A stretch of 35,633 nucleotides of DNA from Vicinamibacteria bacterium (GTDB lineage: Bacteria > Acidobacteriota > Vicinamibacteria > Fen-336). Below are positions 1,852 through 12,118 of the stretch, one piece after another (position 1 is the stretch's first letter; each line of letters starts with the position of its first letter). The position numbers and the translations under genes are program-made. The DNA lies in assembly GCA_035570235.1 (NCBI GenBank), contig DATMML010000080.1:1-35633 (forward strand), in the 5' to 3' direction. The notes under the pieces are model-generated. The model saw only the letters and a program-made list of their open reading frames with translations. It had not been told where the DNA came from and made no database searches.

Positions 1852-3636
1852 TCACGGCTTCAGGTCCTCGGGGGTGCGCAGCTCGCCGCCGCGGACAACG
1901 TAGCGCAGCTTCCGGAAATTGCGGACATCTTGCGAGGGGTCCCCGCTCACCGCGATCAAGTCCGCGGCCTTCCCCTTCTCAATGGTGCCGATCTCGGCTT
2001 CGAGACCCAGGGCGCGGCTGGCCACGGCCGTCGATGCGGCGATCACTTGCATTGGCGTCATCCCCGCGGATTGCATCGCCTCCATCTCCGCATAGATGGC
2101 GGGGCCGTGGAGAGTGAGGGGGTTGCCGGCATCGGTGCCGGTGGCAATCGGGATTCCGGCGGCCACCAGCTTGGGCAGGTTAGAGGCCGCCACCCTCTCA
2201 TCCTGGACCACGCGGTGCTCGCGAGCCTCAACGTTTGCCGCGTCGACGAGAGAGGCTTCGAGTGCAGCGGTGGAGGCTACCTTGACCAGGGTCGCCTCGT
2301 CCACGCAGTGGTTCGGGTCGTCCACGCTGGGAGCCTTCCGGTCGATCAGGGCACGGAACATCCGAACATATCCGCGACCCACGGTCAGAGTGGGGCTCAG
2401 GATCGTGCCCTGCTGACGGGCCAGGTCTAGAAACTCCTGATCGACGGGTACGTCCCAAACGCTGTGGACCAGGAGCTTTGCCCCCGCCCGCAGGGCCACC
2501 TTCGCCTCCGCGAGGCCCGTGGCGTGGACGATCAACGGGAGGCCCATATGGCGTGCCTCGTCACCCGCGGCCATAACCGCTTTCTCCGATGCCTCGACGG
2601 TCAGGGTCGGCGGCCGGACGATGTACCAGAGTTTCACCGCGTGCGCCCCTTGCGCACTCAAGTAGCGCACGGCCTCGCGGGCGGCGGTCTCGCTGGTCAG
2701 GGGCAGGAACTGGCGCTCTCCGGGCAGGGTCAGCCAATGATCGAGGGTGGAGAGGAGGGGACCGGCCGCGACCACGTGGGGCATCAGCGTGTCCTGCGCG
2801 TATCGGTCTTGGAGCTGCAATGTCCAGGGGTAGCCCCCGACGTCGAACACCGCGGTGACGCCGGAGCAGAGATACGACCGGCCGAAGCGATCGGGATGCT
2901 TGCGGAGGTCCGCTTCAACCGTCTCATAGGGATGAGCGGCGCGTAGATCAAGGGCATCGGGGCGCCCATCCGCCCATCCGGTCTGTGAAAAGTGGACGTG
3001 AGCGTCGATCAGGCCCGGCGTGAGCCACAGCCCTTTGAGGTCGGTGACGCCGACGTTCTCGGGGAGGGGGCACTGGGCCGCGCTGCCCGCACAATCGATC
3101 TTGCCGCCGCGCAGCACGACCGTCGCGGTGGGCACCGGCGGGCCCCCGCGCCCGTCGATGAGGGTCGCGCCCACCAGGGCCCGCGGCGGTGGGGGGGTGC
3201 CGGGCGGCGCGTCTATCGCTCCCGTGACCGCCACCCTCCAGCCCTCCGGGGTCTTCGTGAACAAGCGCTCCGAGATCCCTGTGTGTTCTTCTCTGCCGTA
3301 GCGGACTCGGTAGCGGTAGGTGCCGTAGACGACACCCGCCTGAACCGGCACGAGGTGTAGGTCGCTGGCTTCGATCACATCCGGCCAACGCTCCCCGGCC
3401 GCCTTCACGAACTCTTCGAAGCCGGTGACAAACCCCGTGGGCCCACCGCGAGCGAGGCGGTCGCTGCGGTGGTAGCAGGCCAAGTAGGCCTCGCGGTCTC
3501 GCCGGCGAATGGCGTCGATATTCTTTTCGAACAGGCTGCGGGCGGCCCCGAGATCCACGGCGGCATCGTCTGCGGAGCCCAGCCACGGCGCTACGCCTAG
3601 AAACGCGAGGGTGAGAGCGAGGCACGAATGTCCCAT
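1852..3636 (-). CDS. Exported amidohydrolase with N-terminal SnoaL-like domain
   Basis: A 594-aa protein. I chose the ATG at 3634-3636 because AGGAGG lies 4 nt upstream and the resulting N-terminus (MGHSCLALTLAFLGVAPWLG) is a signal peptide; the frame stays open 18 codons further upstream. Residues about 25-145 look like a SnoaL/DUF4440 (NTF2-like) domain with the usual helix (FEKNIDAIRRRDREAYLACY) and closing strands. Residues about 150-590 are a metal-dependent amidohydrolase of the imidazolonepropionase/prolidase-like branch: DAHVHF (HVH 213-215), K335 in AVKLWY, H371 in IVHATG, H391 in LLVHS and D502 in TGTDAGNP supply the expected metal ligands and catalytic Asp. Likely a periplasmic hydrolase of a cyclic amide or peptide-like substrate; the substrate is unknown. 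It is divergent from the selenoprotein gene, with 80 nt between starts. Confidence 0.88.
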   Translation of the reverse strand: MGHSCLALTLAFLGVAPWLGSADDAAVDLGAARSLFEKNIDAIRRRDREAYLACYHRSDRLARGGPTGFVTGFEEFVKAAGERWPDVIEASDLHLVPVQAGVVYGTYRYRVRYGREEHTGISERLFTKTPEGWRVAVTGAIDAPPGTPPPPRALVGATLIDGRGGPPVPTATVVLRGGKIDCAGSAAQCPLPENVGVTDLKGLWLTPGLIDAHVHFSQTGWADGRPDALDLRAAHPYETVEADLRKHPDRFGRSYLCSGVTAVFDVGGYPWTLQLQDRYAQDTLMPHVVAAGPLLSTLDHWLTLPGERQFLPLTSETAAREAVRYLSAQGAHAVKLWYIVRPPTLTVEASEKAVMAAGDEARHMGLPLIVHATGLAEAKVALRAGAKLLVHSVWDVPVDQEFLDLARQQGTILSPTLTVGRGYVRMFRALIDRKAPSVDDPNHCVDEATLVKVASTAALEASLVDAANVEAREHRVVQDERVAASNLPKLVAAGIPIATGTDAGNPLTLHGPAIYAEMEAMQSAGMTPMQVIAASTAVASRALGLEAEIGTIEKGKAADLIAVSGDPSQDVRNFRKLRYVVRGGELRTPEDLKP

Positions 3637-3661
3637 GGAGCCTCCTTGTTGGACGAGATGA

Positions 3662-3687
3662 GCCGGGAGCCTTTGGCTCCTCCCGGC
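3662..3687. other. GC-rich inverted repeat in the divergent promoter region
   Basis: GCCGGGAG (3662-3669) pairs perfectly with CTCCCGGC (3680-3687), and CC/GG can extend the stem across a TTT loop. It lies between the amidohydrolase start and the selenoprotein start, ending 29 nt before the latter. It could be a leader hairpin or an operator; there is no T-tract on either strand, so a terminator is less likely. Confidence 0.5.
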
Positions 3688-3716
3688 CAACCCCGGACCA
3701 TGATAGGGTTCAGCTT

Positions 3717-4208
3717 ATGGAAATCCTACTCCTGCTGGTCGCGCTTGCTACCGCCGGCGAGAGGCCCCAAGTCGGCGACACGGCCCCCAACTTCAGCTTG
3801 CCCGGTCCGGGCGGGCAGGCGGTGTCTCTGGCCGCCTTCAAGGGCAAGACGATGGTGGTGCTCGCCTTCTTCCCTAAGGCCTTCACCGCCGGCTGAACGA
3901 AGGAAATGTCGGCGTATCGGGATCGTTATTCCGAGTTCGCCGGCACCGCCCAGGTACTGGGCGTCTCGATGGACAATCAGGAGACCCAAGTGAAGTTCTC
4001 GGAGTCCCTGAAGGCGCCATTTCCGCTCTTGGCCGACGCTGACGGCACCGTCTCGAAAGCCTACGGCGTTTGGAACGAGGGGGGGTACGCAAGCCGCGTC
4101 ACATTCGTGATTGACCGCGACGGGAAGGTGAAGGCCGTGTTTGAGGGGAAAGACGCCCTCGATCCCGCCGGTGCCCTCGGCGCCTGCGCCAAGCCCCATG
4201 CCCCTTAG
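3717..4208 (+). CDS. Selenocysteine-containing peroxiredoxin (AhpC/TSA-BCP type), TGA read as Sec60
   Basis: A 163-aa thiol-peroxidase-fold protein when TGA at 3894-3896 is decoded as selenocysteine. Residues 1-14 are a short hydrophobic leader, suggesting export. VGDTAPNFSLPGPGG (19-33) is the peroxiredoxin entry strand. VVLAFFPKAFTAG-U-TKEM (47-64) is the active-site loop, with Sec60 exactly where the peroxidatic Cys sits in the TxxC motif (Thr57). GVSMDNQETQVKF, FPLLADADGTVSKAYGV and the Arg127 region (SRVTFVIDRDG) follow in normal order. There is no Cys five residues after Sec; Cys157 near the C-terminus is the only possible resolving residue. The start is ATG 3717, with AGGG at 3705-3708. 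Without recoding, the gene splits into 59 codons plus an internal ATG ORF (3906-4208). A nonsense mutation of a Cys codon is the alternative, but homology continues unbroken and a SECIS-like hairpin follows. Expected role: peroxide reduction. Confidence 0.87.
3908..3944 (+). promoter_or_regulatory. Bacterial SECIS-like element downstream of the Sec UGA
   Basis: An in-frame stem-loop within the peroxiredoxin coding sequence. The lower stem GUCGGCG (3908-3914) pairs with CGCCGGC (3938-3944), 7 bp with one G-U. After a 2x3 internal loop (UA/GUU), the upper stem UCGGGA (3917-3922) pairs with UUCCGA (3929-3934), 6 bp. The 6-nt apical loop UCGUUA (3923-3928) contains the G and U expected for SelB recognition. 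The base starts 11 nt after the UGA and the apical loop 26 nt after it, inside the normal bacterial spacing. Pairing was found by eye. Confidence 0.75.
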
Positions 4209-10013: not shown

Positions 10014-11585
10014 ATGCCGGATCTCGAGGGTGAGGCCGCGGTCTTGGACGAGCTCGTCTGCGAGCGCGCGCGCCTCGCGAGGGACCCTCGCTATGACGGT
10101 CGGTTCTTCATCGGCGTCTTGTCCACGGGCATCTATTGTCGGCCTATCTGCCCGGCCCCGACGGCCAAGCGCAAGAACGTGCGGTATTTTTCATCTGCCG
10201 CGGGGGCGGCTCAGGCTGGCTTTAGGCCCTGCCTGCGGTGCCGTCCCGAGATCGCTCCCGGAACGCCGGCTTGGAATGGCACCGCGGCCACGGTCAGCCG
10301 GGCCTTACGACTGATCGGGCAGGGGGCGCTCGATGAGGGGAGCGTAGAGGACCTGGCCGGGCGGCTGGGGGTGAGCGCCCGCCATCTCCACCGGCTGTTC
10401 CTCGGTCACCTCGGGGCGCCGCCCGTCGCCGTGGCCCAGACGCGGCGGCTGGAGTTCGCAAAGCAGCTCGTCAGCGACACCGACCTTCCCATGAACCAAG
10501 TTGCCCGCGCGTCCGGTTTCCAGAGCATCCGCCGGTTCAACGACACGTTCCAGCGGCAGTACCGCCGCGCGCCATCGAAGCTGCGCCGGATCCGAACCGC
10601 TTGGCCGAGGGCGGCAGAGGGGCAGTATGTATTCCGGCTAGGATATCGGCCCCCTTTTGACTGGGACTCGCTTCTCGCGTTCTTGGCCGCGCGGTCGATT
10701 CTCGGCGTGGAAGAGGTGCGCGCAGGGACGTATCGCCGAACGTTCGCGATCCAGGGGTCGCAGGGCACTCTGGAGGTGCGGCCCCTGCCCCGCGCCCATG
10801 CCGTGGAGGCGCGAATTTGCTTTTCGGCACCGTCGCTTCTGCTCCGGATTGTAACCAGAGTGCGCGCCATGTTCGATCTGGGAGCCGATCCCGCCGCCGT
10901 GGCCCGGCACTTCCGTCGGGACCGGCTGCTGGCGCCGCTCGTGAGGAAGTACCCCGGGCTGAGGTTGCCGGGCGCCTGGGACGGCTTTGAGCTGGCCGTG
11001 CGCGCCATTCTCGGCCAGCAGGTCACCGTCAGTGGGGCCTCGACGTTGGCGGGACGCTTGGCGCGCCAATATGGCGAGCCGCTCACCCTGCCCGATCGGG
11101 GAGGCCTCAGCCACGTCTTTCCGGGCGCGGAGGTGTTGGCGGAAGCGAACATTACCGGTCTACCCGCCGCGCGGGCGGCCGCCATTCGAGGGCTCTCCCG
11201 GGCCGTATTGAGGGGCGAGGTCGACCTCGCTACTTCGGTTCTGACCGATCACATCACGGAAGCCCTCCTGCGCGTGAAAGGCATCGGAGAGTGGACCGCA
11301 CAGTACGTCGCCATGCGGGCGTTCGGGGAGCCCGATGCCTTTCCCGCCGATGATCTCGTCCTGCGCCAGACGGCGGGGAATGGGGTCGCCCTCCCGCGGG
11401 CCCGATTGTGGGAGCGGGCCGATGCTTGGCGGCCCTGGCGGGCGTACGCGGCCATGTACCTCTGGCGCGAGGCCGCCGATATGTCGACCCGGGGGGCCAA
11501 GCGGACGATGAGAAAACCGGACGCGCCTTTCCCGGCTTCGCAGGGGGTCCCCCAAAGAGCGAAGCCACGATACATGGAGGCATGA
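10014..11585 (+). CDS. Ada-AlkA fusion: methyl-phosphotriester sensor/AraC regulator and 3-methyladenine DNA glycosylase II
   Basis: A 523-aa three-part protein. Residues 10-85 are an Ada zinc domain with the four ligand cysteines C42, C46, C73 and C76 (YCRPIC, LRCRP); it accepts methyl groups from DNA phosphotriesters. Residues about 90-200 are an AraC-type double helix-turn-helix (VEDLAGRLGVSARHLHRLF, MNQVARASGFQSIRRFNDTF). Residues about 215-495 are an AlkA-type glycosylase with the helix-hairpin-helix VKGIGEWTAQYVAMRAFG and the catalytic Asp pair D446/D447 in AFPADDLVLR, ending in WRPWRAYAAMYLW. It removes alkylated bases and probably activates the alkylation response. The Ada C-terminal methyltransferase domain is missing, but the next gene supplies it and overlaps the stop codon. 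Confidence 0.93.
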   Translation: MPDLEGEAAVLDELVCERARLARDPRYDGRFFIGVLSTGIYCRPICPAPTAKRKNVRYFSSAAGAAQAGFRPCLRCRPEIAPGTPAWNGTAATVSRALRLIGQGALDEGSVEDLAGRLGVSARHLHRLFLGHLGAPPVAVAQTRRLEFAKQLVSDTDLPMNQVARASGFQSIRRFNDTFQRQYRRAPSKLRRIRTAWPRAAEGQYVFRLGYRPPFDWDSLLAFLAARSILGVEEVRAGTYRRTFAIQGSQGTLEVRPLPRAHAVEARICFSAPSLLLRIVTRVRAMFDLGADPAAVARHFRRDRLLAPLVRKYPGLRLPGAWDGFELAVRAILGQQVTVSGASTLAGRLARQYGEPLTLPDRGGLSHVFPGAEVLAEANITGLPAARAAAIRGLSRAVLRGEVDLATSVLTDHITEALLRVKGIGEWTAQYVAMRAFGEPDAFPADDLVLRQTAGNGVALPRARLWERADAWRPWRAYAAMYLWREAADMSTRGAKRTMRKPDAPFPASQGVPQRAKPRYMEA

Positions 11586-12118
11586 TGTTTTACTGCCACG
11601 TCTCGACTCCGGTGGGCGAGCTGCTGCTCGCCGGTGATGGGACCTCCTTGCGTCTCGTTGCCTTCCCCAAAGGCCCCCGTCCCCAGAAGCCGGAGGCTGG
11701 CTGGGAACGGAGCGAGACGCCCTTTCGGGACGCCCTTAGTCAACTGAAGGGCTACTTCGCGGGCACGTTGCGCCGCTTCGATCTGCCCCTAGCGCCGGAG
11801 GGAACGGCGTTCCAGAAGCTGGTCTGGCAAGCGCTCCTGACCATTCCCTACGGGGAGACCCTCTCCTACGGCGGGCTGGCGCAGCGCATCGGGAAGCCGA
11901 CGGCCTCGCGGGCGGTGGGCGCGGCGAACGGCCGAAACCCCATCCCCATCATCATCCCTTGCCATCGCGTAATTGGGGCGGCGGGGTCCCTGACCGGATT
12001 TGGGGGTGGCCTGTCGACCAAGCGCAAACTCCTGGAGCTCGAGGGTGCCCTTGCCGAGAGCCTCTGGTCGGCCGCGTCTCGAGTCGATGACGGGAGTGCG
12101 GGCAGAAAGCGGGCCTGA
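11585..12118 (+). CDS. ogt: Methylated-DNA--[protein]-cysteine S-methyltransferase (Ogt/MGMT)
   Basis: A 177-aa suicide repair enzyme that moves the methyl group from O6-methylguanine to its own cysteine. The active site IIIPCHRVIG contains Cys126. The DNA-binding helix and Arg finger are in TASRAVGAANGRNP (Arg109), and the GETLSYGGLAQRIG helix-turn-helix is present. GGAGG (11576-11580) favours the ATG at 11585-11587; the ATG at 11582 is an alternative. Either way, the start overlaps the stop of the Ada-AlkA gene, so the two are translationally coupled. The frame is open further upstream, but that part lies inside the glycosylase gene and is not family-like. Confidence 0.95.
   Translation: MFYCHVSTPVGELLLAGDGTSLRLVAFPKGPRPQKPEAGWERSETPFRDALSQLKGYFAGTLRRFDLPLAPEGTAFQKLVWQALLTIPYGETLSYGGLAQRIGKPTASRAVGAANGRNPIPIIIPCHRVIGAAGSLTGFGGGLSTKRKLLELEGALAESLWSAASRVDDGSAGRKRA

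Follow-up and report, generated by a model that had tools for sequence, protein, structure and literature searches.

Background

When an in-frame TGA falls at the catalytic codon of a gene, it may be a mutation or error, a true stop or a codon for selenocysteine (Sec). This question is raised by a peroxiredoxin gene on the forward strand (3717-4208) of the 35,633-nt stretch of DNA analysed here (the window), which is contig C80 of an Acidobacteriota genome. An earlier note on this DNA had read the gene as an unannotated selenoprotein with Sec at the peroxidatic position, and had considered its export-like leader and its lack of a nearby resolving Cys unusual.

That Sec-containing peroxiredoxins occur in some bacteria, as the note stated, is well documented. 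Those with a TxxU motif, represented by 43 genes, ranked second in size among the known selenoprotein families of the Sargasso Sea set (PMC1088965), and 12 sequences were included in another survey (PMC1794560); the family is also covered in two reviews (PMC9312934, PMC13188914). In 2006, the Acidobacteria were credited with 4 selenoproteins from 3 families (PMC1794560). We conclude that the gene almost certainly encodes a Sec-containing peroxiredoxin of the AhpE/PrxQ-like kind, a reading on which TGA-bearing orthologues, a predicted SECIS element and a full set of Sec machinery agree.

Results

The reading frame opens with an ATG at 3717 and closes with a TAG at 4206-4208. When its TGA (3894-3896, forward strand) is read through, the product is a protein of 163 aa, running from MEILLLL through FFPKAFTAG-U60-TKEMSAY to GACAKPHAP, with this single TGA and no further internal stop. 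By translation and orthologue alignment, the TGA is codon 60, at the position of the peroxidatic Cys. One Pfam AhpC-TSA domain (residues 19-140; E 1.1e-37) spans the TGA, as does a Redoxin match, and the motif PKAFTAG-U-T bears out the claim that the TGA replaces the catalytic residue of an otherwise intact peroxiredoxin. As the note had anticipated, table-11 gene finding, which does not recode, yielded solely a truncated ORF of 100 aa at 3906-4208 on the forward strand, which is what a Sec-blind gene finder would report. A shadow ORF (3726-4199) lies on the opposite strand.

Relatives were sought in the taxonomic family, in 396 Acidobacteriota genomes and in named GTDB genomes, and in all three sets the closest relatives each had one TGA aligned to residue 60. 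A TGA at the same codon with intact flanks was present in 66 orthologous Acidobacteriota loci, a few of which are one genome seen via two collections. These orthologues span dozens of species, many genera and many assembly projects, and the named relatives that carry the TGA are all Acidobacteriota (Bryobacterales, Solibacter, Thermoanaerobaculia, Holophagales, Blastocatellia, Pyrinomonadaceae and Terriglobia). U60 aligns with the redox Cys of homologues, and two orthologues, L091 and L092, have Cys in its place; this alignment at position 60 was one of the checks that the note had proposed. The L091 genome has no selA above the cut-off and a marginal tRNA-Sec match (49.6 bits) that is possibly a serine tRNA, while selA and tRNA-Sec are both present in the L092 genome. 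In plasmid records, all relatives of the gene were below 60% identity.

Among ten close pairs, dN/dS was 0.013-0.28 upstream of the TGA and 0.028-0.33 downstream, indicating that purifying selection acts on both sides. The peroxiredoxin sequence is continuous in one frame across the TGA, as had been claimed, and the orthologues give no sign of the frame decay that the note had named as grounds for rejection. Judged by the 66 TGA orthologues and the low dN/dS, the placement of the TGA in a peroxiredoxin is more than chance. In a phylogenetic tree, the source gene and its five nearest relatives formed a supported all-U clade within a larger, mostly-U group, and the well-supported branches of the whole set require six or more U/C changes. 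Such a number is consistent with the repeated Cys/Sec exchange described for the Sec-peroxiredoxin family (PMC1794560).

Two further groups of peroxiredoxins were observed in the same taxonomic family. One clade (L039, L050, L051, L053 and L058) has four Sec members and one Cys member, likewise with a Cys 98 residues past the catalytic residue. The other clade, which is leader-bearing, sets L037, L038, L047 and L049 against L040, L041, L042 and L045; its Sec and Cys versions are closely related, carry a Cys at +4 and would make useful natural Sec/Cys pairs.

The absence of selB and selC from a complete genome would have spoken against Sec, and the source genome (5.72 Mb, 99.6% complete) was searched for the whole machinery. 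All four components were found: selA (524 bits; curated cut-off 268), selB (341.9 bits; cut-off 242), selD (352.8 bits; cut-off 125) and tRNA-Sec (selC; 71.4 bits; gathering score 47), the last also called by ARAGORN with anticodon tca. The selD gene itself (L018; contig C103:141313-142233) contains an in-frame TGA, within SCAGUASK, and SelD is therefore very probably a selenoprotein too. Two other peroxiredoxins of this genome have TGA at the catalytic position, namely L025 (contig C10:25920-26351), which is Cys-free after the Sec, and L026 (contig C51:15343-15729), in which a vicinal Cys follows at +5. By inspection of the printed folds, each of these two TGAs is followed by a hairpin whose loop is GUU.

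Among the 396 sampled Acidobacteriota genomes, 249 had selA above the cut-off and 51 had a strong TGA-containing peroxiredoxin match. The two were associated: selA was found in 46 of those 51 genomes versus 203 of the remaining 345 (Fisher p 4e-6). Incomplete MAGs are the most likely explanation for those genomes that have the TGA form but gave no selA match (3 of 18 in one sample and 5 of 51 in another).

A bacterial SECIS hairpin is predicted just 3' of the UGA, at 3907-3945 on the forward strand. According to one of the reviews (PMC13188914), such hairpins have a loop of 3-9 nt, an upper stem of 4-16 bp, a G within the first two loop bases, a distance of 16-37 nt from the UGA and an MFE of -7.5 or lower. 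The predicted hairpin falls within all four published criteria, with an upper stem of 7 bp, a 4-nt apical loop (CGUU, 3924-3927) in which G is second, a distance of 27 nt and an MFE of -21.9 kcal/mol. Its z was -2.55 against dinucleotide shuffles. When synonymous codons were shuffled so that the protein was kept, and the hairpin search was constrained roughly to the published bacterial SECIS model, none of 1000 shuffles reached the stability of the real hairpin.

Across the alignment, mean hairpin z was -1.40 in 69 U rows versus -0.06 in 58 Cys homologues, with a Mann-Whitney p of 3e-12 that serves as a guide only, given that the rows are related. In most orthologues the loop is GGC or GUC and lies 23 nt after the UGA; in the lineage of the source gene, loops are shifted to approximately 24-28 nt and are varied. 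Because loop positions differ between lineages, RNAalifold found no consensus SECIS structure over 18 orthologues, and per-sequence folds and synonymous shuffles were used after this failure. The window contains no Rfam match at gathering score, which says nothing against the predicted SECIS.

The active-site motif, P53-K-A-F-T57-A-G-U60 (PxxxTxxU), is encoded at 3873-3896 on the forward strand. Thr57 is invariant across the clade alignment, as is the active-site Arg127 (codon 4095-4097, forward strand). After U60, the protein has Met at +4 and Ser at +5, and thus no vicinal resolving Cys of the PrxQ type. To that extent the note's statement that no resolving Cys is nearby was correct; as an overall description it fails, since an invariant C-terminal Cys, Cys157 (codon 4185-4187, forward strand), is a candidate for the role. 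This residue is shared by all 67 Sec loci of the clade, each with its TGA at the same codon, and by both Cys members; a vicinal Cys at +4 or +5 is found in none of them. By comparison, a vicinal Cys is present in 52 of the 58 Cys homologues and a C-terminal one in just 3, two of these being the clade's own.

An AlphaFold model of the protein (pLDDT 92.7, pTM 0.87) places Cys157 within a predicted C-terminal helix (151-158). The best structural matches to the model were AhpE, BcpB and archaeal Bcp, with a top Z near 24.8, and the modelled fold is AhpE/PrxQ-like.

The protein begins with a hydrophobic N-terminal leader, MEILLLLVALATAG (3717-3758, forward strand), which is a putative export signal. 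Hydrophobic leaders occur in most orthologues, many with a basic n-region, which the leader of the source gene does not have. Export is likely in view of the many orthologues with such leaders. The neighbourhood is not conserved in the five closest relatives, in which the peroxiredoxin alone is common besides a permease-like gene at varying distances, and the context therefore offers no functional clue. The divergent neighbour in the window (1852-3690, reverse strand) looks by eye like an exported amidohydrolase whose N-terminal part is SnoaL-like, and was not found beside the orthologues. Adjacent ORFs at 10014-12118 on the forward strand resemble, again by eye, an Ada/AlkA-type DNA repair fusion and a methylguanine methyltransferase.

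Discussion

Sec insertion at residue 60 is inferred because of the sequence, its conservation and the machinery of the genome, and two readings without Sec have to be weighed against it. If the TGA were a nonsense mutation in a Cys peroxiredoxin, or an assembly or sequencing error for TGC or TGT, a Cys would be expected at this codon, and Cys is indeed the usual residue across the wider superfamily; this is the sole point in its favor. However, 66 orthologous loci, drawn from many genera and assembly projects, share the TGA at this codon and have no other stops, dN/dS stays below 1 downstream of the TGA, and both the hairpin and the Sec machinery are in place. Sequencing error, including the misread Cys codon that the note had named as a refutation, is not credible when the same codon is TGA across dozens of species, and we rejected the pseudogene and error readings on these orthologues, leaving them a negligible probability. 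It is also very improbable that translation ends at the TGA and starts anew at ATG 3906 to give the downstream 100 aa as an independent short protein. An ATG 9 nt past the TGA does open this ORF, but its product would be deprived of the peroxidatic residue, along with half the motif of the active site, and in several orthologues the Met is missing (L062, UTLEVQGY; L070, UTRELQAY; L079, UTRELKAY) while the whole domain is kept. The presence of Sec machinery and a SECIS hairpin also argues against it.

For the Sec peroxiredoxin, we propose that the hairpin immediately 3' of the UGA directs SelB and Sec-tRNA-Sec to place Sec at residue 60. Sec60 would be the peroxidatic residue, attacking peroxide with the help of Thr57 and Arg127 to form a selenenic acid. 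Cys157 in the C-terminal helix would probably resolve this acid by forming a selenenylsulfide, either in one chain or between the chains of a dimer, and a thioredoxin-like protein may then reduce that bond. The enzyme presumably acts outside the cytoplasm.

The resolving step is where a rival cycle must be considered, in which the protein is a genuine Sec peroxiredoxin of the 1-Cys type: an external thiol would reduce the selenenic acid directly, as in AhpE of M. tuberculosis, and Cys157 would have another role, e.g. in a dimer contact. AhpE, a peroxiredoxin described as 1-Cys, is among the nearest solved structures, and this cycle is the main rival. Yet the fixation of Cys157 in every Sec locus and both Cys members of a clade devoid of vicinal Cys, set against the rarity of a C-terminal Cys and the prevalence of a vicinal one among the Cys homologues, makes it rather unlikely. 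The conservation pattern suggests that Cys157 is fairly probably the resolving residue, and we favor the two-residue Sec/Cys cycle.

The active form of this gene and its orthologues are invisible to Sec-blind annotation. The Sec trait is common in Acidobacteriota, against the few selenoproteins credited to the group in 2006, and it appears to serve there in defence against peroxide, probably in an extracytoplasmic location. To call the protein unusual, as the note did, was an overstatement: the TxxU family is known, leaders are widespread among clade members, and there is a candidate C-terminal resolving Cys. Sec peroxiredoxins with TxxU are established, and the modestly new part is the Acidobacteriota clade with a leader and C-terminal Cys. 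The portions of two reviews available to us (PMC9312934, PMC13188914) do not give this Sec/C-terminal-Cys arrangement for the described TxxU Sec-peroxiredoxins. Whether this is a phylum-wide clade of exported Sec-peroxiredoxins, with a Sec/Cys pair whose resolving Cys lies in the C-terminal helix, is in our judgement evenly balanced. The Sec/Cys pair and two natural Cys versions offer a tidy system for asking why selenium is kept.

With its PF00578 domain and PxxxTxxU motif, the protein belongs to the TxxU class. A member from Eubacterium acidaminophilum was reportedly studied by Sohling et al. in 2001. That enzyme, PrxU, and the TxxU family (COG1225/PF00578) share with our protein a common superfamily, a peroxidatic Sec in TxxU and a bacterial SECIS just downstream. 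In contrast to the clostridial PrxU, the Acidobacteriota protein has a leader peptide and the invariant C-terminal Cys157; its score against NCBIfam PrxU (NF040737) was 67.4 bits, below the cut-off of 270. The best NCBIfam match by score, PrxQ/BCP (NF006960), likewise fell short (93.6 bits; cut-off 140), and although the PF00578 domain is common to both, our protein is without the +5 vicinal Cys of most PrxQ homologues compared. Prx-like thiol:disulfide oxidoreductases and Prx-SUH are selenoproteins of a like fold class, in which Sec lies in a thioredoxin-like UxxC or CxxU rather than TxxU, according to PMC13188914. AhpE/BcpB of Mycobacterium tuberculosis (1xvw, 4x0x, 5epf) has a like fold (Z 24.8, rmsd 1.5-1.7, 36-38% identity over 147 residues); AhpE is a Cys enzyme described as 1-Cys, whereas the Acidobacteriota protein would pair Sec with a conserved C-terminal Cys.
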